From assembly GCF_030644365.1 (NCBI RefSeq), contig NZ_CP130058.1:1550001-1614000 (forward strand): a stretch of DNA of 64,000 nt, written 5' to 3'. Of the stretch, positions 5,543 through 47,747 are shown piece after piece; the stretch's first letter is position 1; the number at the start of each line of letters is the position of its first letter. The position numbers were made by a program, and so were the translations under genes. This stretch comes from Schaalia sp. HMT-172 (GTDB lineage: Bacteria > Actinomycetota > Actinomycetes > Actinomycetales > Actinomycetaceae). Under the pieces are notes generated by a model that saw nothing but the letters and a program-made list of their open reading frames with translations, was not told the origin of the DNA and did no database searches.

Positions 5543-5573
5543 ATCATGTCACACGAGTGGCATTCGGACCGTG

Positions 5574-8221: not shown

Positions 8222-8252
8222 TGGTGCTCCTACCAACCGACAATGAATAGTG

Positions 8253-8281
8253 AAAAGGGCGCCCGGCAACGCCGGACGCCC
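8253..8281 (-). terminator. Intercistronic terminator between rpmA and obg
   Basis: On the minus strand GGGCGTCCGG pairs with CCGGGCGCCC (one G-U) around a CGTTG loop, followed by TTTT. It lies between the rpmA stop and the obg ribosome binding site and would lower obg transcription relative to the two ribosomal protein genes. Confidence 0.75.
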
Positions 8282-8296
8282 TTCATGCGCGCGGTC

Positions 8297-8554
8297 TCAG
8301 GCAGAGACCGGCGAAACGCTGACAACCTTGCGATCGCGCTTGCGGCCGAACTCGACCGCACCCGCGCGCAGGGCGAACAGGGTGTCATCCTTGCCGCGGC
8401 CGACGCCGTCGCCAGGATGGAAGTGGGTGCCGCGCTGACGAACGAGGATCTCACCAGCGTTAACCAGCTGGCCGCCGTAGCGCTTCACGCCGAGGCGCTG
8501 CGCGTTCGAGTCGCGGCCGTTACGGGAGGAACCAAGGCCCTTCTTATGTGCCAT
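8297..8554 (-). CDS. rpmA: 50S ribosomal protein L27
   Basis: 85 aa. It begins [16 protein letters not shown] and continues with RLGVKRYGG and [12 protein letters not shown], all hallmark L27 segments. The N-terminal arm reaches the peptidyl transferase centre. There is no cleavable Firmicutes-type N-terminal extension. It lies between rplU and obg in the conserved order. Confidence 0.98.
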
Positions 8555-8588
8555 CAGGTGCTACTTTCTGCTCGTGGGTCCGTTGGAT

Positions 8589-8909
8589 TCAGGCGATCTC
8601 GGTGATCTTGACGACCGACATCTTCTGACGGTGTCCCTGGCGCTTGCGGTAGCCCGACTTGTTCTTGTACTTAATGATGGAAATCTTGGGGCCCTTGGCC
8701 GAGTCAACAACCTCAGCCTTGACGGAAACCTTGTCCAGCTTGGCTGCGTCAACAGTGATGGCGTCGCCATCCACCAGCATCAGCGGCTGGAGCTCGATGC
8801 TCGAACCGATTTCCTCTGCCAGCTTGTCGACGACGACGACGTCACCGACGGACACCTTTTCCTGCCGGCCGCCAGCCTTGACGATCGCGTAGACCACGTT
8901 GGAGCTCAT
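8589..8909 (-). CDS. rplU: 50S ribosomal protein L21
   Basis: 106 aa. VYAIVKAGGRQEKV at the N-terminus and KYKNKSGYRKRQGHRQ near the C-terminus identify L21, which binds 23S rRNA. The ATG at 8909 was chosen because it gives the family N-terminus and is preceded by GAGAAGAG; the upstream in-frame ATG would add 57 unrelated residues. It is the first gene of the rplU-rpmA-obg-pro-nadD unit. Confidence 0.98.
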   Translation of the reverse strand: MSSNVVYAIVKAGGRQEKVSVGDVVVVDKLAEEIGSSIELQPLMLVDGDAITVDAAKLDKVSVKAEVVDSAKGPKISIIKYKNKSGYRKRQGHRQKMSVVKITEIA

Positions 8910-9005
8910 CTCTTCTCGTATTCGTAACCGGGATCCCGCCTCGAAACTGCCGAGGACTTGCGAAGTTCTCATGATCCCGTTGGCACTTGTTGCGCCGACG
9001 ATCAA

Positions 9006-9034
9006 ATTTAGCCGATTGGCACGCCCGAGTGCAA
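9006..9034 (-). promoter_or_regulatory. Probable rplU promoter
   Basis: TTGCAC (9034-9029) and CTAAAT (9011-9006) are 17 bases apart on the minus strand, in the only AT-rich part of the gap between rne and rplU. The transcript would have a leader of about 90 bases. Confidence 0.6.
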
Positions 9035-9090
9035 CCCGGCGCGGCCGACGGCTCGTCGGAATAGCTGTGCGATTCCACACCCCGCGCGGA

Positions 9091-9115
9091 AGGGAGGGCC
9101 GAGGTGGCCCTCCCT
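9091..9115 (-). terminator. Hairpin downstream of rne
   Basis: A perfect 10-bp stem, AGGGAGGGCC with GGCCCTCCCT, and a 5-base loop lie 13 bases beyond the rne stop codon. No T-run follows, so termination strength is uncertain. Confidence 0.55.
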
Positions 9116-9128
9116 CACCGCCTACACG

Positions 9129-33427: not shown

Positions 33428-34654
33428 TCAGCACCCGGGAACACTTGTGCTTTCGATGCTCACGTCGAATGTCGGTTTGCCGTCGGCGTCAAGGATGAGC
33501 GACGCCGACTCATCGAGCCTCAGCGACGCGACCGCGACTGACGGTACTGACCGGAGCACACTGCCCGACGTATTAGGACGAATCAAAAACGAGAGGTCCG
33601 ACTTGAACTTGTTTGGTTCATAGTCCACGCTCTCGACACTGACAGGCTCGCTCTGAACTTCCAGGACCGCCAGATTGCGGCTCTGCAGTGGAACCGGACA
33701 GCCACGATCAAGATTCCCTGCGGGAGTCACGCACGCGTGAGTCTTCTCCTTGATCGCTGCGAGTGCCGCCTCACGAACGTCCGGGGTGTACTCGGTGTTC
33801 ACCTCGACATCCATCACATCAGAGTCTGCTGAACGCCCGTCGTTTCCCTTCGCAACAACCGCGACCGAATCAGCCGTGACGTACTTGCTGGACAATTCCG
33901 GTTCCAGATTGTAGGTACCGGGGTAGAACGCCAGGAGGGCCCACCGCCCAGTGTTATCGGTCGTCAGCGGAGCAGTAGCTTGCACATTGTCGATGGTCAT
34001 GCCCTCCACGTTGCGTCCCGTCACGTAGATTCGAGTGATGAGGGGATCGAGAATCTCCCAGTTGTCGAAGAATCCTAGCGTCGACTCCCTCTTCATGACC
34101 CGGAAGGTCTGCGAAAAGCTCTCTCCCCTGACGCTCATCGTAGCCCTGACCTGATGCAGAGAGGACGAGGAGTCCTCATCTGTGTCAACGATTTCCTCGA
34201 CAGTCAAACGGTTGGGCGTGGCCCCGAGAGCCTCATCCGTCAAGAACACGCGTTGCTCACTGGGAATGCCCGGATCGACCATCCGCGAGGCGGCACTGGC
34301 CTGCCCACTGGACAGCAGACCGAGATAGCGCCGAACCTGAGCCTCGGGAGTGCGCATTGCTCGGGCAACAACGAGGCCTGCCACGCCCACGCCGATCAGC
34401 GCGATCACGACGGTGAAGGCGATGATCATACCGTACGGACGACGCTTGCGGACCGCAGCTGTCGGATAAGCGCCGGGTTCTGGCCCGCCGACTTGTCCGG
34501 TGGACACGCGCACGAGGGTTCCGTCCTCTAACAAGCGAACTTGCGCCCTCTGCGCGCCGGTAACGCCATCGTACGACGACGCGCCGGCACTCGACATGTC
34601 CGCTCCGAACCGCGCGAGCGGATCTCCGTTGTGGGGGTATCGACTCGTACCCAT
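33428..34654 (-). CDS. Membrane-anchored paralog family, detached member 1
   Basis: 408 aa of unknown function. A cytoplasmic part (1-73) ends in KRRPYG, one membrane helix follows (about 76-98), and the rest should lie outside. RTPEAQVRRYLGLLSSGQAS and MVDPGIPSEQRVFLTD are the family's first extracytoplasmic block, AFYPGTYNLEPE the middle block, ACVTPAGNLDRGCP the Cys pair and DADGKPTFDV the end motif. It is the most divergent tail-end member besides that at 46647, and lacks the Pro-rich tail. It is separated from the other six by putA and a TetR gene and lies 23 bases from repeat copy 2. The ATG has AGGAG upstream. Distant likeness to TcaA/YvbJ-type proteins is possible but unproven. Confidence 0.85.
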   Translation of the reverse strand: MGTSRYPHNGDPLARFGADMSSAGASSYDGVTGAQRAQVRLLEDGTLVRVSTGQVGGPEPGAYPTAAVRKRRPYGMIIAFTVVIALIGVGVAGLVVARAMRTPEAQVRRYLGLLSSGQASAASRMVDPGIPSEQRVFLTDEALGATPNRLTVEEIVDTDEDSSSSLHQVRATMSVRGESFSQTFRVMKRESTLGFFDNWEILDPLITRIYVTGRNVEGMTIDNVQATAPLTTDNTGRWALLAFYPGTYNLEPELSSKYVTADSVAVVAKGNDGRSADSDVMDVEVNTEYTPDVREAALAAIKEKTHACVTPAGNLDRGCPVPLQSRNLAVLEVQSEPVSVESVDYEPNKFKSDLSFLIRPNTSGSVLRSVPSVAVASLRLDESASLILDADGKPTFDVSIESTSVPGC

Positions 34655-34693
34655 GTGTCACTCCTGACCTCTTGAGCGGCGGTGCGCCGTGTC

Positions 34694-34728
34694 GTAACCA
34701 ACGAGTACTTCCTCGCTACATGGTTACC
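34694..34728 (-). promoter_or_regulatory. Conserved leader inverted repeat (copy A)
   Basis: GTAACCA and TGGTTAC flank about 20 bases containing CGAGGAAGT. A closely similar block precedes the family gene at 45230 (46511-46547). It starts about ten bases after the expected transcription start, so it is either an operator or an mRNA hairpin. Confidence 0.6.
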
Positions 34729-34740
34729 CAGACAGGGCTA

Positions 34741-34769
34741 ACGTTAAGCACCGGGACCACGAAAGTCAA
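34741..34769 (-). promoter_or_regulatory. Promoter of the detached family gene
   Basis: TTGACT (34769-34764) and TAACGT (34746-34741) with 17 bases between them on the minus strand. Confidence 0.65.
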
Positions 34770-34840
34770 AACACCAGGTGGCGGAACGGGAATCACCGCT
34801 GATCCACCCCACGACCGCGCGAACAGGCCGCGAATGACAC

Positions 34841-34888
34841 CTCGCTGCCCGCCGGGACCTCGTGAACACGGGTCGAGCGGGCAGCGAG
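34841..34888 (-). terminator. putA terminator
   Basis: CTCGCTGCCCGC and GCGGGCAGCGAG form a perfect 12-bp stem just after the putA stop codon. The loop is long (24 bases) and the T-run weak. Confidence 0.7.
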
Positions 34889-34899
34889 GGATACGAGCG

Positions 34900-37800
34900 C
34901 TACAGGAGCCCGGCCGCCAAGTCGAGCGGCGTGCCGAAACGGTGATTCGTCAACGACACCGCCTGCTCGCGCAGGAAGGGCAGCAGCTCGGCGTGCGGGC
35001 ACGTCGTCACGGCACTGGTGTACAGAGCGATGTCGGGGCTGCCAGCACTCACGCGGCAGGCATGCACCCACCGATCCTGCGCGGACTCCTCGCGCGGACC
35101 AAGGACGCGCACGCGCAGCCCCAACCCGCCGGAGGCGGCCAGAGCGGCGAGTCGAGCATCCCACGTCTGTTTGTCGTCGACGCTCACCTCGACGCCCGCG
35201 GCCTCGATAGCGACCGCCATCGAGTAGGGCAGCTGATCGGCAACCGACAGGGTGACGGGGCCGCCAGCGAGGATACCCGCCGCCATCACGCGCGCGATAT
35301 CCGCCAGGGCGCTCCCCCGCTCTGCTCGGACGAGGACTGTGGCCGGGCGGTAGCGCAGGATGTTACGCTCGCACGCCAGGCCCGTGACGTCGCGGTTGAC
35401 CCCGTAGTCGCTGGCCCAGGCGGCGGCATCGGCCACGATGGCGCGATGCAGCTGCGCCAGGTCCGCCGCTCCCAGGTGCTCGCCCGCCGCGTCGTACAGG
35501 GCGAGCACGCGGGTCGACAGACCCATGCTCTCCGGCGCATTGGGTTCTCCCGCGAGCTGATCGTGGGCAGGTTCGATATCGCCCAGGCCCAGTAGGTAGG
35601 AGGGACCGCCCGCCTTCGTCGTCGAACCGATCGCGGAGCGTTTCCACCCACCGAAGGGCTGGCGGCGCACGATGGCCCCCGTGATGCCGCGGTTGACGTA
35701 GAGATTGCCCGCTTGAATGCCGTCCAGCCATTGAGCTAGCTCGTCGGTATCCAGGGTGTGGAGCCCGGAGGTGAGGCCGTAGTCGACGGAGTTCACCGCC
35801 TCGATGGCGTCCTCAAGCGTGTCGACGCGCATGACGCCGAGGACGGGCGCGAAGTACTCGGTGAGATGGAACTCGCTGCCGGGAACGACTCCCGCGCGGA
35901 TGCCCGGCGTCCACAGGCCGCCTCCCAGGCAGCGGGGCTTGAGCACCCAGTGTTCGCCGGGTCCTAGCGTGGTGAGTCCGCGCAGGGCCTTCTCGTCGTC
36001 GGGCACGACCACGGGTCCCACCTGGGAGTCCAGGGCGGAGGGCGCACCGACCCGCAGCGATGCTGCGGCGTCCACGAGCTGGCGCGCGATGCGCGCGGAG
36101 TGTCCGGCCGACCCAACGAGGATCAGCAGGGAGGACGCCGAGCACTTCTGGCCGGCGTGGGCGAACGCCGAGGAGACGATGTCGCGCACGGCCAGGTCGG
36201 GGTCGGCCGACGGGGTGACGATAATGGCGTTCTTGCCGCTGGTCTCGCCCAGCAGATGCATGTCGGGTTTCCACGACTTGAAGAGGCGCGCCGTCTCGTA
36301 GGAGCCGGTCAGCACGACACGGTCAACCCGCTCGTGGGTCACCAGGTGGCGTGACACGTCCCCGTCCTCGAGGGGGGCGAGCGCCACCAGGTCCTTGGGG
36401 ACTCCGGCCTCGTGGAAGGCCGCGATGAGCTCCGCGGCACAGCGCTTGGCGGGAGGCGCCGGCTTGAGGATGACGGCGCTGCCCGCGGCCAGTGCAGCCG
36501 CGACGCCACCGGTGGGGATGGCCACCGGGAAGTTCCAGGGTGAGGCGACGACGGTGACGTCCACGGGGACGAAGCATGCCCCCGCCATGTGTGCCTCGTC
36601 GGTAAGCTGCAGCGAGGCATCCGCGTAGTGGTGGCAGAAGTCGATGGCTTCGCTCACCTCGGGGTCGGCCTGGTCGATCGTCTTGCCAGCCTCGGAGCCG
36701 GCGACTTCGATGAGCTCGCCTCGGCGCGCGGCGAGGACGTCGCCGACGCGGTGCAGCGCGGCGGCTCGCTCCTCGGGGGCCAGGGCCTGCCAGGCGTGGG
36801 CGGCCTTGGCGCTCGCATCGATCAGCGCGTCGATTGCCTCGCGCGTGGCCAGGGCCTGGGCGCCCTGGCGCACGGTCTCCTCCCCTCGCGTCGAGGCCGG
36901 GATGGCCTCGGCGATGTCGCGCGCCCACTGGCGGTTGGTGGCCAGGGCGGGGTCGGAGTCAGCCTCCGAGGAGAAAGGCCGACGGGCGCGCTCATCGAGG
37001 CTCCCCTGTTCGACCGGGACGCCGCCGTCGCGCTCCGCGAGCCGGTTCTGGGAGCGGTTGGGAACGGGGATGGGCGCGTGCGGATCCACGTCGGACAGGG
37101 CGGCGAGGAATCGGTCGCGCTCTCGAGCGAACACGTCCTCGTTGGTGGCGATGTCGAAGACGCCGGACATGAAGTTCTCGGGGGCCGCGTTTTCCTCCAG
37201 GCGACGCACGAGGTAGGAGATGGCGACGTCAAACTCGCGGGGGTTGACGACGGGCACGTACAGGAGGAGGGAGCCGACGTCTCGGCGCACGACCTCCTGA
37301 ATGCCGGTCGCCATGCCGGAAAGCATCTCGAACTCGACGCTGTCCTCGACGCCGCGCGCCGCGCGCAGCTCGTAGACGAAGGCGATGTCGAAGATGTTTT
37401 GTCCGGCCACGCCCAGGCGGATCGCGCGGGTGCGCTCGGGGGTCATCGCCCAGTTGAGCATGCGCTTGTAGTTGGTGTCGGTGGCCTGTTTGGAGGGCCA
37501 GGTGGTGAGCTCCCAGCCGTGGATCTCGGCATCCACCCTCTCCATGGACAGGTTCGCGCCCTTGACGATGCGGACCTTGATGCGCGAGCCGCCGGCATCG
37601 ACGCGCGCGGACGCCCACTCCTGGAGACGTTGAAGGGCACCGAGGGAGTCGGGCAGGTAGGCCTGGAGGACGATGCCGGCCTCGTAGCCGCGCATGTCCG
37701 GCTGGTCGAGGATGGCGGTGAACACGGCGATCGTGAGATCCAGGTCCTTGTAATCCTCCATGTCGAGGTTCAGGAAGGTCCCGTTGTCGCGTGCGAGTCG

Positions 37801-38475
37801 GTAGAGGGGCGCCAGGGCGCGCACGCCATGGGCGACGACCTCGTCGAAGCCCCAGGGGTTGTGCGGGCCGGTGACCGCAGAGACCTTGATGGAGACGTAG
37901 TCGACGTCCTCGCGCGTGACGAGGCGGGAGACCTCGGCGAGGCGGTGGGCGGCTTCCTTCTCTCCGAGGACGGCCTCGCCCAGGAGGTTGACGTTGAGGC
38001 GGTGTCCGCCTGCGCGCAGGCGGGCGAGCGCCGGGCCGAGGCCCTTGTCCGTCGCGTCGACGACCAGGTCACCGACGATCTCGCGGAAGACTCGGCGCGC
38101 GATGGCCGTCACGCTGCGCGGCGCCAGGCGCGACGCGCTCGATCCGAGGCCCATGGCGGCGGCGAGCGCCGGGGGCAGGAAGTCCTTGCGTCCCCGTGCC
38201 AGTTTCTGGAGGGCCGCGCTGGCCACGTCGAGGTCCACGGGACGCACGACGTCGTCGACGAAACGGGTGGTGAACGTCAGGCCGTCCGGGTCGGCGAGGA
38301 TCCGGGAGAGCAGCTTCGCGGATTGAGGTGTAGGTTCGTGGGCCGACTCGTCTGCCCAGCGGCGCGCTCGGGTGACGGCCCTCTCCCCCAGTTTCCACAG
38401 GTCATCGGGGCACTGGCGTCCCTTGGCGCCGTGCGTGCTGGGTCGGGGTGGGGTGGGAACGGCGGCGTTCGTCAT
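34900..38475 (-). CDS. putA: Bifunctional proline dehydrogenase / glutamate semialdehyde dehydrogenase
   Basis: 1191 aa. The first 480 residues contain the FAD-dependent proline dehydrogenase barrel (YVSIKVSAVTGPHNPWGF, FLNLDMEDYKDLDLT, GSRIKVRIVKGANL). The second half is an aldehyde dehydrogenase with GETSGKNAIIV and catalytic Cys in AHAGQKCSASS. The protein oxidises proline to glutamate. No N-terminal DNA-binding domain is seen, so it is not a self-regulating PutA. The last 200 residues form a divergent ALDH-like tail. The ATG at 38475 has GGAGGG 6 bases upstream; the ORF could start 60 bases earlier but without such a site. proA and proB for the reverse path are at 4256-6701. Confidence 0.95.
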   Translation of the reverse strand: MTNAAVPTPPRPSTHGAKGRQCPDDLWKLGERAVTRARRWADESAHEPTPQSAKLLSRILADPDGLTFTTRFVDDVVRPVDLDVASAALQKLARGRKDFLPPALAAAMGLGSSASRLAPRSVTAIARRVFREIVGDLVVDATDKGLGPALARLRAGGHRLNVNLLGEAVLGEKEAAHRLAEVSRLVTREDVDYVSIKVSAVTGPHNPWGFDEVVAHGVRALAPLYRLARDNGTFLNLDMEDYKDLDLTIAVFTAILDQPDMRGYEAGIVLQAYLPDSLGALQRLQEWASARVDAGGSRIKVRIVKGANLSMERVDAEIHGWELTTWPSKQATDTNYKRMLNWAMTPERTRAIRLGVAGQNIFDIAFVYELRAARGVEDSVEFEMLSGMATGIQEVVRRDVGSLLLYVPVVNPREFDVAISYLVRRLEENAAPENFMSGVFDIATNEDVFARERDRFLAALSDVDPHAPIPVPNRSQNRLAERDGGVPVEQGSLDERARRPFSSEADSDPALATNRQWARDIAEAIPASTRGEETVRQGAQALATREAIDALIDASAKAAHAWQALAPEERAAALHRVGDVLAARRGELIEVAGSEAGKTIDQADPEVSEAIDFCHHYADASLQLTDEAHMAGACFVPVDVTVVASPWNFPVAIPTGGVAAALAAGSAVILKPAPPAKRCAAELIAAFHEAGVPKDLVALAPLEDGDVSRHLVTHERVDRVVLTGSYETARLFKSWKPDMHLLGETSGKNAIIVTPSADPDLAVRDIVSSAFAHAGQKCSASSLLILVGSAGHSARIARQLVDAAASLRVGAPSALDSQVGPVVVPDDEKALRGLTTLGPGEHWVLKPRCLGGGLWTPGIRAGVVPGSEFHLTEYFAPVLGVMRVDTLEDAIEAVNSVDYGLTSGLHTLDTDELAQWLDGIQAGNLYVNRGITGAIVRRQPFGGWKRSAIGSTTKAGGPSYLLGLGDIEPAHDQLAGEPNAPESMGLSTRVLALYDAAGEHLGAADLAQLHRAIVADAAAWASDYGVNRDVTGLACERNILRYRPATVLVRAERGSALADIARVMAAGILAGGPVTLSVADQLPYSMAVAIEAAGVEVSVDDKQTWDARLAALAASGGLGLRVRVLGPREESAQDRWVHACRVSAGSPDIALYTSAVTTCPHAELLPFLREQAVSLTNHRFGTPLDLAAGLL

Positions 38476-38632
38476 GCGTGGCCCTCCAGGCTCGGGTGAG
38501 TGTCGGATACTCCGCATCACGTGCGCCTCGATCATTGACCGCGCGTCCTCGCTCTGCGGCGTGCCAGGCTTCCGACGGTGTAAAGCATGCTGGTTTGTCT
38601 ATCCTAACGCGCCTGAGGGTTCTTAGTGGCGC

Positions 38633-38656
38633 CGTGGGCGCGTTCGTCGCGCCACG
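38633..38656 (-). terminator. Possible terminator between tetR and putA
   Basis: CGTGGGCGCG and CGCGCCACG pair with one bulge around TTCGT in the 293-base gap upstream of putA. It has no T-run. The gap otherwise carries the putA promoter region, in which I could not fix clear boxes. Confidence 0.4.
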
Positions 38657-38768
38657 GAAGCACGGGACCTAAGCCCCGCGCCCAACACAAGCCATTGTGA
38701 CATTGGACATAGACAACTGTGATTGCCGTTCTCATGCCTTCTTCGAGCGTGAGGAGGCAACGCTGCGA

Positions 38769-39413
38769 TCAAGAACGAATAAGCCACCGATCCTTGATAT
38801 CCGAGACGACGCCCGCTGTCACCGCTCGCATGTCGACATCGCGCCCACCATCGGCACGCGAGCACAGCCACTGGACCTGCAAGCCATCGGACAGCGCGAC
38901 GAGTTTGCGGGCAATCTGTTCGCTCGGCGCGTCGGGATGGACCTCGCCGGCGGCCTTTCCGCGCTCGAGGGTGTCCACCAGGTATTCGATCGTGGCCATC
39001 AAATGCTGACGGAACCAGGGGTAGGCCTGATGACTCGCATCGATGACCGCCGCGGACATCGCGGTGTACAGGGCGACGCCATCGGGATGACGTTGATTAT
39101 GCGCCACCATCTCCACCCACGCGTCGAGCGCCGCCTCTGTCCCCTTGTCCCCGTCGGGCAGGCGGCTCATCGTGCGCCGATCGCGCTCGTCCAGGACGGC
39201 GGCCAACAGCTGGTCCTTCGACGAATAATGATGGAGCAACCCCGCCTTGGAAATATCCGACGCCCGCGCAATATCCGCCAGGGAGGTCGCCACGTAGCCG
39301 CGGGTCGAGAAGAGAGTCAGCGCCTCGGCGAGGATGCGCGCCTTCTTGTCCTCAGAACCGGCCTTGGGGCGTCCGGGCCGGCGCGTCGTCGTTACCTGTG
39401 CGTCGTTGCTCAT
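38769..39413 (-). CDS. TetR/AcrR family regulator
   Basis: 214 aa. An N-terminal HTH lies at about 25-70 (ILAEALTLFSTRGYVATSLADI, then ASDISKAGLLHHY and SKDQLL), followed by an all-helical ligand-binding region. The basic TTRRPGRPKAG start is common in this family. It lies between putA and the paralog array on the same strand and could control either. No matching operator was identified. Confidence 0.92.
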   Translation of the reverse strand: MSNDAQVTTTRRPGRPKAGSEDKKARILAEALTLFSTRGYVATSLADIARASDISKAGLLHHYSSKDQLLAAVLDERDRRTMSRLPDGDKGTEAALDAWVEMVAHNQRHPDGVALYTAMSAAVIDASHQAYPWFRQHLMATIEYLVDTLERGKAAGEVHPDAPSEQIARKLVALSDGLQVQWLCSRADGGRDVDMRAVTAGVVSDIKDRWLIRS

Positions 39414-39515
39414 GCAGGCTGCTCCACTCTCGCTGTGACAGAGTTACCAACAACCCATCATAGCGTCCCACGCGCCGTGTGCCACCCAATTGGCAAACAA
39501 CTCTCAACACAAGAA

Positions 39516-39543
39516 GCGGCGCGGAGCCCTCGCCCCGCGCCGC
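39516..39543 (-). terminator. Terminator at the end of the paralog array
   Basis: GCGGCGCGG and CCGCGCCGC form a perfect 9-bp stem 7 bases after the stop of the gene at 39550, followed on the minus strand by TTCTT. Confidence 0.7.
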
Positions 39544-39549
39544 CCCTTG

Positions 39550-40761
39550 TCAGAACCCGAATTTCACGTCGAAGACCGGCTTGCCCGCCGAGTCGAGCTG
39601 GATTTTCCCGTCGGAGTCCAGCTTGACGGTGACCCTCACCGTCGCTTCCTCGTCGTGAGGAGACTTGTCGAAACCAGAGTCGCTCTGAATGCTGAAGACT
39701 GCCTCGCCAGTGTAGGTATCGCTCCCAGGGCCATCCTGCTTCACAGAGGTCGGCGCCGACTTCAGCTCCAGCACCGATAGGTGTTTGGATTGAACGGCGT
39801 AGGGGCAAGCCTTGTTGATATTGCCGGGGATCGTCACGCAGGAGTTCGTCAGATCAACGGCGGCGTTGAGAGCCTCCTGGGCGAGCTTGTCGTTATACCG
39901 TCCAGTCAACTCCACGGTAGCGCTCGAGGAATTCGTCAGGAAGTCGCTCGCCCCCGCCTTGACGGGCTGCTTGACTGGATCAGCGCTGACGTACTCACCC
40001 GTATCGACCGGGGTGAAGGTGTAGACCCCCGGGTAGAACACGAAGGAGGTGCCCGAGGAGTACTTGTTGCCATCGAGAGAAGACGTGACGTCGCCGACGG
40101 AGAAACGGTTGACCTTCTCGCCGGTGACGAGCACGCGCGTCACGAGCGCGTCCTCGATCTTCCAGTTCTTCAGGAAGCCCATCGTGGGCTTGGCTGAGGA
40201 CACACGGAAGGAGTGGGTAAAGCGGTCGCCATCGAGCTGCATCGTGGCGGTGACGATGCGAATGTTCCCGCTGGTCGAGTCGGCAACCACGTCCTCGACC
40301 ACCAGGCGCGCGCTCGCCGAGGCCATGACGTCGTCGGAGAGGAAGCCACGCTGGTCATTGGGCAGGCCGGGGTCGACCATCGCTGTCGCCGCGCTGGCCT
40401 TGCCGTCGGCCAGGAGGTCCAGGTACTGGCGCACCTGGGCCTCGGGCGTACGCGTCCAGTTGGCGAACATGAGGCTCACGGCACCCACGAGTCCAAGGAC
40501 CATGATCGCAACCAGGACGATGGCGGTGCGCTTGACGCGGCGCTTGCTCGTAGTCGACATGGGGGTAAAGGAGAGGGAGCCCTGCACCTGCGGCGTGGGA
40601 ACGCCAGCAAACTGATCTGCGGGGACAACCTGCGCGGGCGCCTGCTGCGCCGCAGGTGGCGCAGGGACGGCGTGGGCTTCGGACACAGCCGGAGCTCCTG
40701 CCTCCTCAGGAGCGGGAGGAGGCGTCAGACCGTGGCTATTATCCTCGCTGCTCTGTTTCAT
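39550..40761 (-). CDS. Membrane-anchored paralog family, member 2
   Basis: 403 aa of unknown function. A cytoplasmic Pro/Ala-rich tail (1-70) and SKRRVKR are followed by a membrane helix (about 79-101). Extracytoplasmic blocks are RTPEAQVRQYLDLLADGKAS, MVDPGLPNDQRGFLSDD, FVFYPGVYTFTPVDTGEY, the Cys pair SCVTIPGNINKACP, and DSAGKPVFDV at the end. The ATG has GAGAGGAAC upstream, with its own promoter and terminator, so it is transcribed alone. It is the last gene of the tandem array in transcription direction. Confidence 0.87.
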   Translation of the reverse strand: MKQSSEDNSHGLTPPPAPEEAGAPAVSEAHAVPAPPAAQQAPAQVVPADQFAGVPTPQVQGSLSFTPMSTTSKRRVKRTAIVLVAIMVLGLVGAVSLMFANWTRTPEAQVRQYLDLLADGKASAATAMVDPGLPNDQRGFLSDDVMASASARLVVEDVVADSTSGNIRIVTATMQLDGDRFTHSFRVSSAKPTMGFLKNWKIEDALVTRVLVTGEKVNRFSVGDVTSSLDGNKYSSGTSFVFYPGVYTFTPVDTGEYVSADPVKQPVKAGASDFLTNSSSATVELTGRYNDKLAQEALNAAVDLTNSCVTIPGNINKACPYAVQSKHLSVLELKSAPTSVKQDGPGSDTYTGEAVFSIQSDSGFDKSPHDEEATVRVTVKLDSDGKIQLDSAGKPVFDVKFGF

Positions 40762-40842
40762 CGTTGTTCCTCTCTGCCCCGCGTCCGTCATGCGCCCGGA
40801 AGCGGACGTCATGGAGTGCCTGGTGGATACAAAAACCGAGCA

Positions 40843-40871
40843 ATTTTCTCACACGCCATAACCTGATTCAA
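40843..40871 (-). promoter_or_regulatory. Promoter of paralog member 2
   Basis: TTGAAT (40871-40866) and GAAAAT (40848-40843) are 17 bases apart. The 311-base gap 40762-41072 otherwise holds only the terminator at 40966-40995 and no gene. Confidence 0.6.
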
Positions 40872-40965
40872 CACGCATGCGATACAGGACCGCGCGGCGT
40901 GGTTTTCTTCAAGGGGGACACGCATCGCGCGCAGCTCAGAGGCATCCTGTCCGGATCAGACAAGT

Positions 40966-40995
40966 AGCGGCGCGAGGCATGAGCCCCGCGCCGCT
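40966..40995 (-). terminator. Terminator of paralog member 3
   Basis: AGCGGCGCG and CGCGCCGCT form a perfect 9-bp stem with a 12-base loop, downstream of the gene at 41073. Confidence 0.65.
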
Positions 40996-41072
40996 TGTCG
41001 CTATCACAGTGACCGCGAGGGTCTCCTGCGCTACGCGCGTGAAAGACGTCCGTGTCGAAGGCGGCGCCGGCC

Positions 41073-42206
41073 TTAGCGGGATGCGCCCACCCAGAAGTCC
41101 GGTGTGCCCTCCGGTGTGAGCTTGAGAGTCCCATCGTTGGCGAATTGGACGTTGACAACCACCGCGGCGTCGACGTCGCGCGTGCCCGGCATGTAGGACT
41201 TGTCGGAGTATGTCACCGCGAAAGTGACCTGACCCTGGAAGACCCCCGGGTCCAGGTCCATCGGTTCGAGCGTTGTGGGCATCGTCTTGATGGAGATCGC
41301 GCTCACCGCGTCGCTATTGAGGGCGGAGGGGCACTCAGAATTCTGGTTGCCCGGGATGGATGCGCAGGAGTTCAGGAATTCCTTCGCGGACTCGAGCGCC
41401 GCTTCCTTCAGTTTGTCGCTGTAGGTTGCTTCCAGGGACACGTCGGCGGCGTCAGCATCGTTGGCGGTTCCACCGTGGACGCCGTCAAGGACGGCAACGG
41501 TCTTGGTGTTGACATTCACGTATTCGCTCGGGGCGACGGGCGTGAACGTGTAGACGCCGGGGTAGAAGAAGTACGTGGCCGGCTTACCGGAGACAAGCTT
41601 GCGTGGAGCGTCGGCGCTCACCTCTCCGACGGTGAACTGGGTGTATCCCTGCGCGTCGACGCTGACCTGCGCAGCCAGGGAGTTCTTCACCGTCCAGTTA
41701 TTGAGAACGCCCATCGTCGGCTTGTCCTTGGTCACGGTAAAGGCATGGGTGAAGCGTTCGCCGTTCACCTGCACGGTGGCCGACACCTGACGGGTCTGGG
41801 AGTCCTCGTTCGCATCGGCGACCACGTCTTCGACGACCAGCAGCGACGTCGCCGAGGCCATGGCGTCGTCGGTCAGGAAGCGACGCTGGTCGTTCGGCAC
41901 GCCAGGATCAACCATGGCCGTCGCCGCACTGGCCTGACCGGAGGCCAGCAGATCCAGGTACTTGCGCACCTCGGCCTCGGGCGTGCGTGAACTGTTGGCA
42001 ACCTTGAGCGCCACCACGCCGGCGATCACCAGCACCGCGAGGACACCAACGAGGATGCCGATCCGGATCGCCCGCTTCTTGCCCCGGCCAGATGGAGGCG
42101 TCGACGCCACGCCTCCCCCGGCGGACGTCGACGGAGCCGGAATCGCGGGGGTTGCGGGGTGTTCCGGTATCGGTGCCGTGTTCGCTTGATTCTTCTCAGT
42201 GCCCAT
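41073..42206 (-). CDS. Membrane-anchored paralog family, member 3
   Basis: 377 aa of unknown function. The cytoplasmic tail is short (1-45), ends in RGKKRAIR and is followed by a membrane helix (about 48-68). SSRTPEAEVRKYLDLLASG, MVDPGVPNDQRRFLTDD, YFFYPGVYTFTPVAPSEY, the Cys pair SCASIPGNQNSECP and the end motif PEGTPDFWV mark the family; here the usual GKP is GTP. Its second half (FTVTKDKPTMGVLNNWTVK) is the closest relative of the second half of member 5. The ATG has GAGGAG 6 bases upstream. Confidence 0.87.
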   Translation of the reverse strand: MGTEKNQANTAPIPEHPATPAIPAPSTSAGGGVASTPPSGRGKKRAIRIGILVGVLAVLVIAGVVALKVANSSRTPEAEVRKYLDLLASGQASAATAMVDPGVPNDQRRFLTDDAMASATSLLVVEDVVADANEDSQTRQVSATVQVNGERFTHAFTVTKDKPTMGVLNNWTVKNSLAAQVSVDAQGYTQFTVGEVSADAPRKLVSGKPATYFFYPGVYTFTPVAPSEYVNVNTKTVAVLDGVHGGTANDADAADVSLEATYSDKLKEAALESAKEFLNSCASIPGNQNSECPSALNSDAVSAISIKTMPTTLEPMDLDPGVFQGQVTFAVTYSDKSYMPGTRDVDAAVVVNVQFANDGTLKLTPEGTPDFWVGASR

Positions 42207-42292
42207 CGTGTGCTCCTCACAACGTTGACAATCCTCAGCCGGACGGCGGCACACGCTGTGCGCGACGTCATCCAGCCACTCAACCGCGCCCA

Positions 42293-42320
42293 GTATTACG
42301 CCACGCATGCAACGAGTCAA
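42293..42320 (-). promoter_or_regulatory. Promoter of paralog member 3
   Basis: TTGACT (42320-42315) and TAATAC (42298-42293) with 16 bases between them on the minus strand. Confidence 0.65.
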
Positions 42321-42346
42321 AGAAGGATCACAGTGCGGATAAGCGG

Positions 42347-42373
42347 TGCCCGTCCGCTTCACGCGAACGGGCA
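42347..42373 (-). terminator. Terminator of paralog member 4
   Basis: TGCCCGTCCGC pairs with GCGAACGGGCA (one G-U) around TTCAC, about 30 bases beyond the stop of the gene at 42404. Confidence 0.65.
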
Positions 42374-42403
42374 CCAGGTGTATAGGGACGGCAGAAGCGG
42401 ACG

Positions 42404-43648
42404 TTAGTAGGCGAAGGACACCTTAAAGTCCGGCTTGCCGTCGGCGGTCACCTTCAGCACTCCGTCATCGTCGAAACGCGCGTCGACCTTCACTGTCAGG
42501 CCGACGTCCCTCGTTCCGGCGAACAGCGTTCCCTCTGTCGTGACCGTGTAGGTCACGCTCCCAGAAAATGACGTTGGATCGAAGCTGTAGGAATCGAGAG
42601 ATGTCGGCTTTTCCTTGATGGAAATAGCGGTGACGCTCTGTCCCTGAATCAGGGATGAGCAGTCGTCGCCCTGGTTGCCCGGGTATGTCCCACACGATTC
42701 AACGAGCGCCTGAGCTGCTTCGAGAGCAGCGGCTTCCAGCTTGTCGTTGTAGGTTGCCTTGAAGGTGACGTCGCTGCTGCCATCGCTATTTCGAGTGTGC
42801 ACCTCATCGAGCACGGAGACGGGCACGGGAGTCGCGTCCACGTACTCGTTGGGCACGACGGGCGTGAAATTGTATGCGCCCGGATAGAAGAGGAAGGAAC
42901 GCCCTTCCATGAAGAAGCTTGCCTTGTCGATAGAGGCCTTCGTCTCACCGACGGAGAACTGATCGATCCCGTCACCGTCCACGGTCACGGGCACCGCCAG
43001 CGAGTCCCTAATCTTCCAGTTATCGAGCACCCCCATCGTTGCCTCATCCGAGGTGACACGGAAGGCGTGGGTGAAGCGTTCCCCGTTGACCTGCATGGTG
43101 GCGGTCACCGTGCGCGTATCAGAACTGTCATTCTTATCGGCGACCACGTCCTCGACGACCAGCAGCGACGTCGCCGAGGCCATCACGTCGTCGGTCAGGA
43201 AGCTACGCTGATCGTTATCCACGCCGGGATCAACCATCGCCGTCGCCGCACTGGCCTGACCGGAAGCCAGCAGATCCAGATACTTGCGCACCTCGGCCTC
43301 GGGCGTGCGCGAACTATTCATCACCTTGATAGCAACGACGCCGGCGATCACCAGCACCACGAGAACACCAACCAGCGCTCCGATCACCTTCACGCGCTTA
43401 CGCGCGCCAGGCGAGACCGGCGTGAAGGACACCCCCGCGGCGGGAACCCCACCGGGCCCCGGAACAGGCGCAGCACCGGGCCCCGGAACAGGCGCGGCAC
43501 CGGGCCCGGGAATGGGGGCAGCACCGGGCCCCGGAACAGGCGCGGCACCGGGCCCCGGAATGGGGGCGGCGCCAGAAGTTGGGTCTGCCCCAGCCGGGGA
43601 CGGTGCAGGTATCTCGCTGCCGGTAGTTTCGTTATTGTCAGTACTCAC
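42404..43648 (-). CDS. Membrane-anchored paralog family, member 4
   Basis: 414 aa of unknown function. The cytoplasmic tail contains five imperfect GPGAAPVP/GPGAAPIP octapeptides (about 26-66), then GARKRVKV and a membrane helix (about 88-109). SSRTPEAEVRKYLDLLASG, MVDPGVDNDQRSFLTDD, FLFYPGAYNFTPVVPNEY, the Cys pair SCGTYPGNQGDDCS and ADGKPDFKV follow. The first half is almost identical to member 5 while the second half differs, a sign of recent duplication or gene conversion. The GTG start has GAGGAG upstream and gives VSTDNNETTG. Confidence 0.87.
   Translation of the reverse strand: MSTDNNETTGSEIPAPSPAGADPTSGAAPIPGPGAAPVPGPGAAPIPGPGAAPVPGPGAAPVPGPGGVPAAGVSFTPVSPGARKRVKVIGALVGVLVVLVIAGVVAIKVMNSSRTPEAEVRKYLDLLASGQASAATAMVDPGVDNDQRSFLTDDVMASATSLLVVEDVVADKNDSSDTRTVTATMQVNGERFTHAFRVTSDEATMGVLDNWKIRDSLAVPVTVDGDGIDQFSVGETKASIDKASFFMEGRSFLFYPGAYNFTPVVPNEYVDATPVPVSVLDEVHTRNSDGSSDVTFKATYNDKLEAAALEAAQALVESCGTYPGNQGDDCSSLIQGQSVTAISIKEKPTSLDSYSFDPTSFSGSVTYTVTTEGTLFAGTRDVGLTVKVDARFDDDGVLKVTADGKPDFKVSFAY
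43452..43571 (-). repeat. In-frame 24-bp tandem repeat, five units
   Basis: Five units of CCGGGCCCCGGAACAGGCGC plus four bases (plus-strand reading), some with GGAATGGGGGC instead, encode GPGAAPVP/GPGAAPIP octapeptides in the cytoplasmic tail of member 4. Length change by slippage would keep the frame. Confidence 0.95.
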
Positions 43649-43737
43649 GACTCGCTCCTCACGATGCGCTGATGGTCCGGAGCCAGCATTGGGCGACAAA
43701 CACACCAATACCAACCACCGGTCAAAAAGACGTGCCC

Positions 43738-43766
43738 ATGATCACACGCCACCAGCCGAGAGTCAA
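43738..43766 (-). promoter_or_regulatory. Possible promoter of paralog member 4
   Basis: TTGACT (43766-43761) and GATCAT (43743-43738) are 17 bases apart. The -10 box is poor, but TTTGACT is shared with the other family promoters. Confidence 0.45.
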
Positions 43767-43847
43767 AGCCGTGTCACACTACGGATACGACGCGCTCCCC
43801 GACCGCCAAGCGATCGAGGAGCGCGACAGGTCGCTTGCCGGGGGACC

Positions 43848-45041
43848 TTAGCGGGTGAAACTCACTTCGAAGTCGGGCTTACCGTCCTTGTCCAGCTTGA
43901 GTACTTGGTTGTCATCCAGCTGCGCGCGAATCTCCACCTTGGCCTCCACGTCTTGCGTGCCTGCCATGTAGTACTTGTTGTTGTACGTCGCCGTGAAGAC
44001 GACAGTCGCCCGAAAGACCGTCGGCTGCTCCTCGGACACCGGCGCCAGCGCCTTCGGCATTGAGCCACCCGTTACCGCGGTGACGGCATCGCTCTGGATC
44101 GCAAATGGGCACCAAGAATTCTGGTTGCCCGGAATGGTCGAGCAGGTGTCAATGGCCCATTGCCCCGCCTCGATCGCGGCCGCCGTCAGCTTGGTGTTGT
44201 AGGTGGCCTTGAGAGTCACGACGTTGTCTCTGCCACCCAACCCATCATCGAGGACAGAAACCGTCTCGGGGTTGGAGTCTGCATACTCGCTCGCCGCGAT
44301 GGGCGTGAACGTGTAGACGCCGGGGTAGAAGAGGTAGTCGTTCTCCTGTTCGTTACGGCCCACCGCGGACGCATCGGCATTCACGCCGCCGACGCTGAAC
44401 TGGGCGTATCCCTCGACATCAACGCTGACCCGAGCGACCAGAGAATCCTTGACTGTCCAGTTATTCAGAACGCCCATCGTCGACGCCCCCTTCGTCACGG
44501 TGAACTCGTGGGTGAAGCGTTCCCCGTTGACCTGCATGGTGGCGGTCACCATGCGCGTATCAGAACTGTCATTCTTATCGGCGACCACGTCCTCGACGAC
44601 CAGCAGCGACGTCGCCGAGGCCATCACGTCGTCGGTCAGGAAGCTACGCTGATCGTTTCTCACGCCGGGATCAACCATCGCCGTCGCCGCACTGGCCTGA
44701 CCGGAAGCCAGCAGATCCAGATACTTGCGCACCTCGGCCTCGGGCGTGCGCGAACTATTCATCACCTTGATAGCAACGACGCCGGCGATCACCAGCACCA
44801 CGAGAACACCAACCAGCGCTCCGATCACCTTCACGCGCTTACGCGCGCCAGGCGAGACCGGCGTGAAGGACACCCCCGCGGCGGGAACCCCACCGGGCCC
44901 CGGAACAGGCGCAGCACCGGGCCCCGGAACAGGCGCGGCACCGGGCCCCGGAATGGGGGCGGCGCCAGAAGTTGGGTCTGCCCCAGCCGGGGACGGTGCA
45001 GGTATCTCGCTGCCGGTAGTTTCGTTATTGTCAGTACTCAC
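43848..45041 (-). CDS. Membrane-anchored paralog family, member 5 (mosaic)
   Basis: 397 aa of unknown function. The tail has three octapeptide repeats, the membrane helix is at about 72-93, and all residues up to GERFTH match member 4 almost exactly. From there on FTVTKGASTMGVLNNWTVKDSL and FYPGVYTFTPIAASEY follow member 3 instead. The Cys pair is TCSTIPGNQNSWCP and the end motif DKDGKPDFEVSF. The protein thus looks like a mosaic with a breakpoint near the start of the variable domain. The GTG start has GAGGAG upstream. Confidence 0.87.
   Translation of the reverse strand: MSTDNNETTGSEIPAPSPAGADPTSGAAPIPGPGAAPVPGPGAAPVPGPGGVPAAGVSFTPVSPGARKRVKVIGALVGVLVVLVIAGVVAIKVMNSSRTPEAEVRKYLDLLASGQASAATAMVDPGVRNDQRSFLTDDVMASATSLLVVEDVVADKNDSSDTRMVTATMQVNGERFTHEFTVTKGASTMGVLNNWTVKDSLVARVSVDVEGYAQFSVGGVNADASAVGRNEQENDYLFYPGVYTFTPIAASEYADSNPETVSVLDDGLGGRDNVVTLKATYNTKLTAAAIEAGQWAIDTCSTIPGNQNSWCPFAIQSDAVTAVTGGSMPKALAPVSEEQPTVFRATVVFTATYNNKYYMAGTQDVEAKVEIRAQLDDNQVLKLDKDGKPDFEVSFTR
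44893..44964 (-). repeat. In-frame 24-bp tandem repeat, three units
   Basis: The same octapeptide-coding unit as at 43452-43571, present three times in member 5. Confidence 0.95.
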
Positions 45042-45130
45042 GACTCGCTCCTCACGATGCGCTGATGGTCCGGAGCCAGCATTGGGCGACAAACACACCA
45101 ATACCAACCACCGGTCAAAAAGACGTGCCC

Positions 45131-45159
45131 ATGATCACACGCCAGCAGCCGAGAGTCAA
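45131..45159 (-). promoter_or_regulatory. Possible promoter of paralog member 5
   Basis: TTGACT (45159-45154) and GATCAT (45136-45131), 17 bases apart, in the duplicated upstream block shared with member 4. Confidence 0.45.
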
Positions 45160-45229
45160 AGCCGTGTCACACTACGGATACGACACGCTCCCCGACCGCC
45201 AAGCGATCGAGGAGCGAGGATTGTCATAC

Positions 45230-46474
45230 TTATTCGACTTCGTACCTCAGCCAGAACTGAGGCTTACCAGCAGAATCGACCACGATCTTTCCGTTTTCGT
45301 CAAACTTCAGCGTCGCGTACACAGTTGACTTCAGGGTGTAGATCGGAGTCCCGGCCCCCTGCTGCACCTTAAAGAAGGCATAGTCGTGGAACTCCGAGGT
45401 CGAGTCCGCCCACTCTTTCGCCTCGGTCGGCATCTGCTTGACCTCGAGGACGGTCAGATCTGTCCTCTGTAGCCCAAAGGGACACACCGTATCGAGATTC
45501 CCCGGAGGCGTGGCGCACGACGTGGTCTGCGCGACCATCGCCTCGACCGCAGCTGCAAGCAACGAATCACTGTATGATGTATCGACTGTCACATAGCGAA
45601 GCGGGTCGGCACCGTACTTGTACTCGTCTCTCGCGGCCTTGAAGATGACCGGGTCGGCTTCGATATAATCCCCCGGGTCGGCGGCACTCACCGTGTAGAC
45701 CCCTGGATACAGCATGTAGATCGGGGACGTGTATGGAAAATAATTGTCATCACTGACCGGCGCCGTCACGCCGCCGATGCTAAACGTCGACACATCCTTA
45801 ATCCTGACGGCGATGGGAACGACTAGGGCGTCTTGGATCGTCCAGTTCTTGATGATTCCCAGTGTCGGTTTACTCTCTTGGACTTCAAAGGGGAATGTAA
45901 AATGGACATCGCCGACCGTCACTGTGGCATCCACGGTGTGTTTCTTCGATGCGCTGCCTTCATCCCTGTCGACGACATCTTCGACCTGCAGCAGCGAGGT
46001 TGCCGAGGCCATGACCTCGTCCGTCAAAAAGACGCGTTCATCGTTGTCCACACCTGGATCAACCATCGCTGTGGCAGCGCTGGCGTTCCCTTGTGCGAGG
46101 TAGTCCAGGTAACGGCGCACCTGCGCTTCGGGTGTACGCATTGAGTTCGCAAGGGCGAAGCTGCCAACGGCTACCACCACGAGTGCAACGAGGAACAGGC
46201 TAGCGAAAAAGATGGGGTTGGCGCGCTTGCGCGGACGCTGCGAGACCGCAGTGACTAAGGGCTGAACTCCGCCAGCCATCGCCGGTGCCATCGCAATCGG
46301 CTCACCCATCGGAAACTGGCCCTGTCCAGGGCTGTATGCACAAGCCGACAGCGGGGCGGACATGCCTGGCACACTCGATGACAACGTCGGCGGATCGGGG
46401 ACGGGATCGCCATCCATGCCACTAGCTATCGGACGGATCGCGCTCCCGGTCACATCATCACTAGCAGCATTCAT
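45230..46474 (-). CDS. Membrane-anchored paralog family, member 6
   Basis: 414 aa of unknown function. The cytoplasmic tail (1-85) is Pro/Met/Ala-rich without regular repeats and ends in RPRKRAN. The membrane helix is at about 88-109. SMRTPEAQVRRYLDYLAQG, MVDPGVDNDERVFLTDE, YMLYPGVYTVSAADPGDY, the Cys pair SCATPPGNLDTVCP and DSAGKPQFWL mark the family. The ATG has GAGGAG upstream. The leader carries the same inverted repeat as member 1. Confidence 0.87.
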   Translation of the reverse strand: MNAASDDVTGSAIRPIASGMDGDPVPDPPTLSSSVPGMSAPLSACAYSPGQGQFPMGEPIAMAPAMAGGVQPLVTAVSQRPRKRANPIFFASLFLVALVVVAVGSFALANSMRTPEAQVRRYLDYLAQGNASAATAMVDPGVDNDERVFLTDEVMASATSLLQVEDVVDRDEGSASKKHTVDATVTVGDVHFTFPFEVQESKPTLGIIKNWTIQDALVVPIAVRIKDVSTFSIGGVTAPVSDDNYFPYTSPIYMLYPGVYTVSAADPGDYIEADPVIFKAARDEYKYGADPLRYVTVDTSYSDSLLAAAVEAMVAQTTSCATPPGNLDTVCPFGLQRTDLTVLEVKQMPTEAKEWADSTSEFHDYAFFKVQQGAGTPIYTLKSTVYATLKFDENGKIVVDSAGKPQFWLRYEVE

Positions 46475-46510
46475 TGCTCGCTCCTCACGGCGTCCGTCGG
46501 TGATGTCTCG

Positions 46511-46547
46511 GGTAATCCACCAGAGACTTCCTCGACAACTGGTTACC
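46511..46547 (-). promoter_or_regulatory. Conserved leader inverted repeat (copy B)
   Basis: GGTAACCA and TGGATTACC flank a centre with TCGAGGAAGTCTC. It is similar over its whole length to 34694-34728, with comparable spacing to promoter and start codon. Confidence 0.6.
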
Positions 46548-46559
46548 ACGACACCACGA

Positions 46560-46589
46560 ATGCTATCACCAGCGAAATGTCCCCGTCAA
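46560..46589 (-). promoter_or_regulatory. Promoter of paralog member 6
   Basis: TTGACG (46589-46584) and TAGCAT (46565-46560) with 18 bases between them on the minus strand. Confidence 0.55.
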
Positions 46590-46646
46590 ACACCTCCGAC
46601 GCAGACGAATCCCCCGCATCAACGCGCCACACGAGGACGTATCTCG

Positions 46647-47747
46647 TTAGAACCAGGGCACGCTGAGACTGACAGAGAAAACGGGTTTGCCGTCAAGAGT
46701 GACCACGGGGATCCCTCCCTCCGTGGTGGCAACCGTCGCGGTGGGACGCACAGTGAGGTCGTGGGGGCTACGATCAGGGAACCAACCGCCCGTGTCCTGG
46801 TAGCGGATAGCTCCGTCCTCGCCAGTGTAGGAGCCATCCTCGGTCGCGCTCACCAGCGCAGATGGGAGTTTCGAGACCTCAAGGACACTCAGACTCGACG
46901 AATGTAGAGCGGAGGGACACGAGTCGGCCATATTCGTTCCCTGCGTCGCGCACGCCTGCACCGCATCTTGCATCGCCTGGAGCGCTTCCGTTTTCAGCTC
47001 GGCGCTCAGCGCTCCCTGGAGAGTGAGGGCTGTCGTCTCGTATGGACTGTCATGGCTCCCATCCTCGATCACCGCCTGTTGGGAAGGAGCGGTCACGTAC
47101 GCTCCAACGCCTTCTGGTTCGACCGTGTAAACGCCGGGGAAAAACAGGAAGTCCCGTTTCTTGGATGCGGAGGGATCAAGGTCCGCGACGACGCCGCCGA
47201 CACTGAACTGGGGCACGCGAGAGCCCGACACGGGCAGCGTGACGAACAGGCCATCTCGCAGCGTCCAGGCCGACACGGCCCCGTTGCCTTTCGCGCGCTC
47301 AACGGTGAAGACGTGCGTGAAGCGATCGCCGTCGAGTCGCATCGTTGCGGTAACTGTCGAGGAGTCGACACGCTTGCCGCCGTTATCTTCGGCTTCAACG
47401 GATTCGATGATCAGGCGCGACGAGGCCGAGGCCATGACGTCGTTGGTCAGGAAGAGACGCTGGTCGTTGGGCACGCCAGGATCGACCATCGACAGCGCCC
47501 CCTCGGCGTCCCCTTGCGCAAGGTAGGTCAGATACCGTCGCACCTCCCCATCGGGCGTTCCCTCTTTTTTCGCGATCCATCCGAGCGCCCCCATGCAACC
47601 GACGACGATCGCAACCAAAACAAGAACCGTGAGGGCGTCCTTTCGCGTCCACGCGCGTCTCTTTCGCCACTGCGGCCTGCACGTCGACATGCGCGGGCGC
47701 GCATTGCCTGGCACCCCGTACTGCGGACCGGGCATCTGCACCCTCAT
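46647..47747 (-). CDS. Membrane-anchored paralog family, member 7
   Basis: 366 aa of unknown function, the shortest and most divergent of the array. A short basic tail (RPQWRKRRAWTRKD) precedes the membrane helix (about 38-58). The usual RTPEAE is GTPDGEVRRYLTYLAQG. MVDPGVPNDQRLFLTND, FLFFPGVYTVEPEGVGAY, the Cys pair ACATQGTNMADSCP and LDGKPVFSV are kept. It is first in transcription order, with AAGGGTG before the ATG. No clear promoter is seen in the 119 bases before it, so it may be read from the small gene upstream. Confidence 0.85.
   Translation of the reverse strand: MRVQMPGPQYGVPGNARPRMSTCRPQWRKRRAWTRKDALTVLVLVAIVVGCMGALGWIAKKEGTPDGEVRRYLTYLAQGDAEGALSMVDPGVPNDQRLFLTNDVMASASSRLIIESVEAEDNGGKRVDSSTVTATMRLDGDRFTHVFTVERAKGNGAVSAWTLRDGLFVTLPVSGSRVPQFSVGGVVADLDPSASKKRDFLFFPGVYTVEPEGVGAYVTAPSQQAVIEDGSHDSPYETTALTLQGALSAELKTEALQAMQDAVQACATQGTNMADSCPSALHSSSLSVLEVSKLPSALVSATEDGSYTGEDGAIRYQDTGGWFPDRSPHDLTVRPTATVATTEGGIPVVTLDGKPVFSVSLSVPWF

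Follow-up and report, generated by a model that had tools for sequence, protein, structure and literature searches.

What are the seven homologous single-pass membrane proteins that Schaalia sp. HMT-172 encodes in one gene cluster, and how do neighbouring copies stay alike in one half and distinct in the other? The genes lie at 33428-47747, all on the minus strand, of the 64,000-nucleotide stretch analysed here, which we call the window (G000:C1:1550001-1614000) and which is part of a 2.53-Mb single-contig genome. Six are in tandem, and gene 1 is separated from them, beyond putA. We propose that they are non-enzymatic, ligand-binding envelope proteins, whose outer module originally belonged to a membrane protein with about ten transmembrane segments (10-TM) and was later multiplied, and we put the probability of this reading at roughly 0.45. 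The observations behind it are a sequence family, its predicted folds, its genomic spread, its fusion to or adjacency with the 10-TM protein, and the differing histories of the 5' and 3' halves of its genes.

A family with a common layout

The seven proteins can be aligned over their length, with 27-34% identity to gene 1, 44 invariant columns and a mean column identity of 49%. A profile built from them recovers all seven genes (E = 1.9e-148 to 1.4e-200), a circular result that confirms only place and frame. Each protein has one strongly hydrophobic segment (7/7) and a short cytoplasmic tail, mostly Pro-rich. The common layout, the arrangement of six genes in tandem plus one (with putA and a TetR-type gene between genes 1 and 2) and the single membrane helix described in the initial annotation are all borne out, as is its terminal GKPxF-type motif, found in all seven as G-x-P-x-F close to the C-terminus. 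Its cysteine motif, SC-x(5)-GN-x(3-4)-CP, needs some correction: Cys-x(10)-Cys is present in all seven, always with an Asn between the two cysteines, GN is found in six (gene 7 excepted) and CP in six (gene 4 has CS), and the spacing is C-x(4)-GN.

No model in Pfam or NCBIfam reaches its cut-off for any of the seven window proteins, in line with the first impression that they belong to no characterised family, and a literature search gave no paper that we recognised as describing it. GltJ was rejected as a match for gene 3 (E 0.0008, 18.6 bits against a cut-off of 450), the matched region being the Pro-rich tail, the helix and domain 1.

The family is wider than the cluster. The seven-gene profile (E <= 1e-3) matches 69 of 200 genomes of Actinomycetaceae, in some of them through the tail alone; this is an upper figure, because matches near E 1e-4, many of which lie in the Pro-rich tail, probably do not belong to the family. 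A 30-row profile of the outer domains (E <= 1e-4) matches 41 of the 394 genomes in the class and 16 of the 35 in the genus, the genome of the window being counted in both, and the family extends into other actinomycete families. The distant relatives that we read are mostly single-pass proteins of about 330-380 amino acids, with a few long fusions. The plasmid collection gave no match.

In the genome of the window, the outer-domain profile finds 12 places: the seven genes, a further three at 370-373 kb, and one each at 447.6 kb and 2331 kb. Two more members adjoin the 447.6-kb copy (E 7.6e-12 and 6.4e-8 by hmmsearch in a small local set), giving a total of about 14. The seven genes of the initial annotation are all present, and as a description of the family they are too narrow.

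Predicted fold of the outer part

AlphaFold models with a predicted local distance difference test score (pLDDT) of 88-92 were obtained for the outer part of gene 2 and the outer two domains of gene 7. Together with weak profile matches, they predict an NTF2-like domain (DUF4878-type) outside the membrane, then a CnaB/transthyretin-like domain, and then a second NTF2-like domain. The order NTF2-like, β-sandwich, NTF2-like is visible in the models, and the two genes modelled have a common fold, as the initial annotation anticipated for the family. The second NTF2-like domain bears the invariant Cys-x10-Cys, which probably forms a disulfide.

For domain 1, the nearest solved folds among the matches listed are the NTF2 domain of RsgI9 and the NTF2-like domain of PBP5/PBP2a, at a sequence identity of 8-19%; unlike these proteins, the family has no recognised sigma-factor-binding or transpeptidase domain. 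Domain 3 resembles the NTF2 domains of VirB8/TcpC/DotI. Intramolecular isopeptide bonds in CnaB domains involve a conserved Lys, Asn/Asp and Glu. These residues are not conserved here at the level of alignment columns, the invariant columns of the outer domains being Gly, Tyr, Cys and Pro only.

One of the closest comparisons is DUF4878 (PF12870), which is also NTF2-like and predicted to be extracytoplasmic. It has a conserved Gly about 25 residues in and a conserved Trp near the C-terminus of the domain (PMC3924330); in our family, Gly20 and Trp100 are invariant in 30 rows. The DUF4878 model matches two of 30 wider family members (best E 0.002) and, at E up to 1, none of the seven window proteins. 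The family differs in that the NTF2-like domain is one of three outer domains, accompanied by the CnaB-like middle domain and the Cys pair. Another is the Rv0361 family (NF051431). Its model matches 5 of 30 wider members (best E 7.9e-5) and none of the seven window proteins; the bit scores given for it, 12.4 for L056 and 19.5 for L063, lie below the curated cut-off of 37. The model spans 140 residues, whereas the outer part of our family has about 300. Rv0361 has been found in the membrane and at the surface (PMC2891697). In one set of wider members, the best weak Pfam/NCBIfam match was DUF7055 (E 0.0017, one of 26 members).

A candidate 10-TM partner in relatives

In genomes of the Actinomyces-type group, and in several others, a reading frame of about 800-1000 amino acids ends with the outer part and begins with a part that has about ten hydrophobic segments. 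One such fusion, of 978 amino acids (L108), is found where the window has its array, with thiL on one side and dak-recG on the other. Elsewhere the two parts are encoded by two genes. The gene for the 10-TM part immediately precedes the single-pass gene in L018 and L021 and lies downstream of it in L125; in L021 (S. georgiae) the stop codon of the first gene and the start codon of the second overlap as ATGA. The seven 10-TM regions compared are mutually related by blastp (L112 as subject only), and in the cases scanned they belong to no Pfam or NCBIfam family. A match of TIGR01005 to the L108 fusion (E 0.0005, 18.3 against 411.7 bits) was discarded; it covers just the last helix and the sequence directly after it.

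Within the genus, the partner profile matches 6 of 35 genomes, each of them one of the 16 that have the outer domain, an overlap with a chance of about 0.005 if genomes are assumed to be independent, which they are not. The same profile finds no 10-TM copy in the genome of the window. Because the two parts are fused or adjacent, it is likely that the outer part and the 10-TM protein act jointly where both are present. The split and the loss of the partner would then be the derived state.

Mosaic genes: shared 5' half, separate heads

Genes 4 and 5 have a tract in common, with 93.0% identity over 759 columns, which begins upstream of the promoter and ends at about the third strand of the first NTF2-like domain. 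DNA identity between the two genes falls from 98.7% over the first 178 aligned codons to 57.5% beyond, a contrast reached by none of 1000 column shuffles. Synonymous divergence (dS) of the inner halves is 0.09 between genes 4 and 5 and 0.56 between gene 4 and its counterpart b4 of A. bouchesdurhonensis; for the outer remainders of genes 4 and 5 (their heads) it is 1.33. The pair b4 and b5 in A. bouchesdurhonensis behaves like genes 4 and 5, with 99-100% identity and then 39-73%. A tree of the first 95 outer codons groups the sequences by species (b4+b5 0.988, h1+h2 0.999, G4+G5 0.737), and a tree of the remaining codons groups them by paralog (G4+b4+k1 1.000; G5+b5 0.998, with h1 joining at 0.997).

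The heads themselves appear constrained. The ratio of nonsynonymous to synonymous substitution (dN/dS), from a simple counting method applied to the A. bouchesdurhonensis counterparts, is 0.17-0.22 for the heads of genes 3-6 and 0.46 for that of gene 2; for whole genes the values are 0.21-0.33 and 0.40, respectively.

The simplest reading of these comparisons is gene conversion of the 5' half combined with purifying selection on distinct heads. Genes 4/5 and b4/b5 are independently mosaic and the heads are conserved between species, which indicates that gene conversion acts on a shared base while each paralog retains a stable head of its own. A similar gradient is seen elsewhere in the genome of the window, in the distant triplet (82-97% over the first 60 codons, later mostly 32-69%) and in u1/u3 from the other tandem set (86%, then 47%). 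In h1/h2 the near-identity covers 33 codons and the upstream sequence, with patches beyond, so that this is a weaker case; and constraint on the helix could add to the gradient in the triplet and in u1/u3.

Proposed function and alternatives

In the mechanism that we favour, the tail would lie in the cytoplasm, followed by the single helix, with the three domains outside the membrane. The NTF2-like pockets and the outer head would bind a ligand derived from the wall or the surface, between membrane and wall. The ancestral role was probably ligand recognition for the 10-TM membrane protein, since the outer part is fused to it or encoded beside it in some relatives. In the lineage of the window, where the partner is undetectable, the outer module would have multiplied, with gene conversion keeping neighbouring copies similar from the promoter through the tail and helix to the inner domain, and with each head retaining a conserved specificity of its own. 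More tentatively, the result may be a fixed set of surface binders: a module freed from its 10-TM ancestor, now with about 14 members at four or more places in the genome, with a base that is reset by conversion and distinct heads that are maintained by selection.

The leading alternative, although an unlikely one, is that these are TcaA-like cell-wall stress proteins, which tune the display of wall polymers and the sensitivity to wall-acting agents. TcaA is a single-pass protein with a large outer part of several small domains whose order, judging from the Pfam names, may be NTF2-like, β-sandwich, NTF2-like. Our family likewise has a single pass and a large outer part of several small domains, and NTF2 domains of wall enzymes are among the nearest folds for domain 1. 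TcaA influences wall teichoic acid and autolysis (PMC10328498), and a Lactococcus operon tied to wall integrity encodes a protein resembling TcaA, but deletion of the latter gave no reproducible phenotype (PMC4628341). The cytoplasmic N-terminal zinc ribbon of TcaA (CxxC pairs) is lacking, five of the seven tails having no Cys and two having one. TcaA_3rd_4th (PF22820) gives nothing over its cut-off in the genome of the window and three weak matches (best E 0.066), none at the window genes. TcaA_2nd (PF22813) has no match in that genome and is over its cut-off in none of 197 actinomycete genomes, in a search that found it in the positive control, B. subtilis; one of 30 wider family members matches at E 0.091. 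A TcaA_2nd match in another genome (G325, E 0.006) is not a family member, as the A3 profile finds nothing at that locus. The family also differs from TcaA/YvbJ in its tandem expansion and in the 10-TM partner of its relatives. Because neither the zinc ribbon nor the domain models are found, we do not assign the proteins to TcaA: they are not orthologs, and the kinship appears to be one of architecture, with TcaA as the nearest functional model. Of the distant relationship to TcaA/YvbJ or DUF4878 guessed at in the initial annotation, it is the NTF2-like/DUF4878 fold that remains.

It is very doubtful that the proteins are accessories of a secretion or transfer machine. The resemblance of domain 3 to VirB8/TcpC/DotI would fit, as would the three distant members of the same genome that stand beside genes we take, by reading, to be EccD/EccC/PP2C/FHA-like; beyond this triplet, a link to type VII secretion recurs only at L110.

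Still more doubtful are variable or phase-variable surface antigens under immune pressure, in keeping with the antigenic function suggested by the initial annotation. Tandem copies, differing heads, truncated copies, a copy number that changes between species and the faster-changing head of gene 2 could all be read in this way. However, the heads of genes 3-6 are conserved between species, it is the inner base that recombines and not the outer part, four of the seven genes have their own promoter-like site, and the family is present in other actinomycete families. Antigenic variation is rejected on the dN/dS of the heads and on which half recombines.

The least probable role is surface recognition when the cell meets another microbe, for example an epibiotic Saccharibacteria cell or a phage. 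S. odontolytica belongs to the genus, and A. odontolyticus strains host TM7x, for whose host range cell-surface genes are suspected (PMC7784981). The family is absent from the enrichment table of that paper, where it could not appear because the table counts Pfam functions and the family has no Pfam model.

Organisation and history of the locus

Likelier start codons lie downstream of the listed open reading frame starts in five genes (ATG in genes 2, 3 and 6, GTG in genes 4 and 5; Table 1), and a GAGGA-type site precedes each of them. Sigma-70-like sites lie upstream of genes 3, 4, 5 and 6; across the stretch, five were found against 2.3 expected (standard deviation 1.7). The motif TTTGACT...GTGAT also precedes array copies in A. 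bouchesdurhonensis, HPA0247 and L016, and the TGTGAGAAAATT element is also found upstream of the gene 2 counterparts in A. bouchesdurhonensis, S. odontolytica and HPA0247. Terminator-like sites within the stretch are not above chance (9 found, 7.6 expected, standard deviation 2.4), and of the "mostly separate promoters and terminators" first described, promoter-like sites are retained for four of the seven genes. Genes 4 and 5 differ by one length of the 48-base Pro-Gly repeat.

Table 1. Features of the gene cluster in window coordinates (aa, amino acids)
Feature	Position	Strand	Remark
Family gene 1	33428..34654	-	408 aa; lone copy beyond putA
putA	34900-38535		between gene 1 and gene 2
TetR-type gene	38769-39413		between gene 1 and gene 2
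Family gene 2	39550..40761	-	403 aa from ATG 40761; resident copy adjoining TetR gene
TGTGAGAAAATT element	40842..40853	-	upstream of gene 2; read from sequence
Family gene 3	41073..42206	-	377 aa; ATG 42206
Promoter-like site, gene 3	42292..42320	-
Family gene 4	42404..43648	-	414 aa from GTG 43648
Tract common to genes 4 and 5, gene 4 side	43066..43823	-	promoter, tail, helix, most of NTF2-like domain 1
48-base Pro-Gly repeat	43450..43573	-	cytoplasmic tail of gene 4; 76-base match, 48-base offset, 90.8%
Promoter-like site, gene 4	43738..43766	-	TTGACT-17-GATCAT
Family gene 5	43848..45041	-	397 aa from GTG 45041
Tract common to genes 4 and 5, gene 5 side	44507..45216	-	BLAST
Promoter-like site, gene 5	45131..45159	-	TTGACT-17-GATCAT
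Family gene 6	45230..46474	-	414 aa from ATG 46474
Promoter-like site, gene 6	46560..46589	-
Family gene 7	46647..47747	-	366 aa; copy adjoining thiL

A family gene lies beside a TetR gene in 8 of 10 named relatives. Within reach of each contig stretch, the locus in relatives is bounded by an rRNA methyltransferase gene and thiL at one end and by putA, dak and recG at the other; L018 and L021 have no putA among their matches, and in L019 and L020 the family gene alone is seen. One genome (G196) has a copy at seemingly the place that corresponds to gene 1, and gene 6 has 94% identity with its A. bouchesdurhonensis counterpart. The number of intact copies between thiL and gene 2 is none in L014 (with one truncated), L017 and L022, four in L013, and five in the window. 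Truncated copies stand beside full ones in L014 (6662-7594) and L015 (9130-9846), which points to gene birth and death in the array.

Some neighbourhoods of the other copies are worth recording. The three distant members in L105 (G000:C1:362000-381500, at about 8080-11322) come directly after genes resembling EccD, EccC (1350 amino acids), a PP2C phosphatase and an FHA-domain protein, presumably a type VII secretion locus from our reading of the sequences. L135 (G000:C1:441500-454500) has three members at 3582-7205, a plus-strand gene flanked by two minus-strand genes whose N-termini are similar, next to what look by eye like alpha-glucosidase-like and VanW-like genes. The lone member in L134 (G000:C1:2325000-2338000, at 5901-6995) has transposase-like genes a few kilobases away, which we take by eye to be of IS256 and IS3 type. 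In one actinomycete genome (L083, 91-2373), the outer domain follows an M48-type peptidase part with membrane segments (HELVH motif by eye).

In 11 of 20 distant loci (L089, L090, L093-L099, L103 and L104) there is a gene near the family gene, directly convergent with it in several, that we presume to be CopD/CtaG-like. By tblastn it is confined to those 11 of 57 loci and is found neither in Schaalia-type loci nor in the window, and for this reason we take a copper link as synteny of those distant families.

Significance

The family joins known folds in an arrangement for which we found no named family, and it has an unusual mode of upkeep. For an actinobacterial envelope family that had no annotation, there are now a predicted fold and architecture and a candidate partner in the membrane, which makes its function testable. 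Its mosaic history would be a clean example from nature in which gene conversion homogenises the anchoring half while the outer domains stay distinct, the reverse of the usual cassettes for antigenic variation. If this is true, the surface binders of one cell would have a shared assembly and separate specificities.
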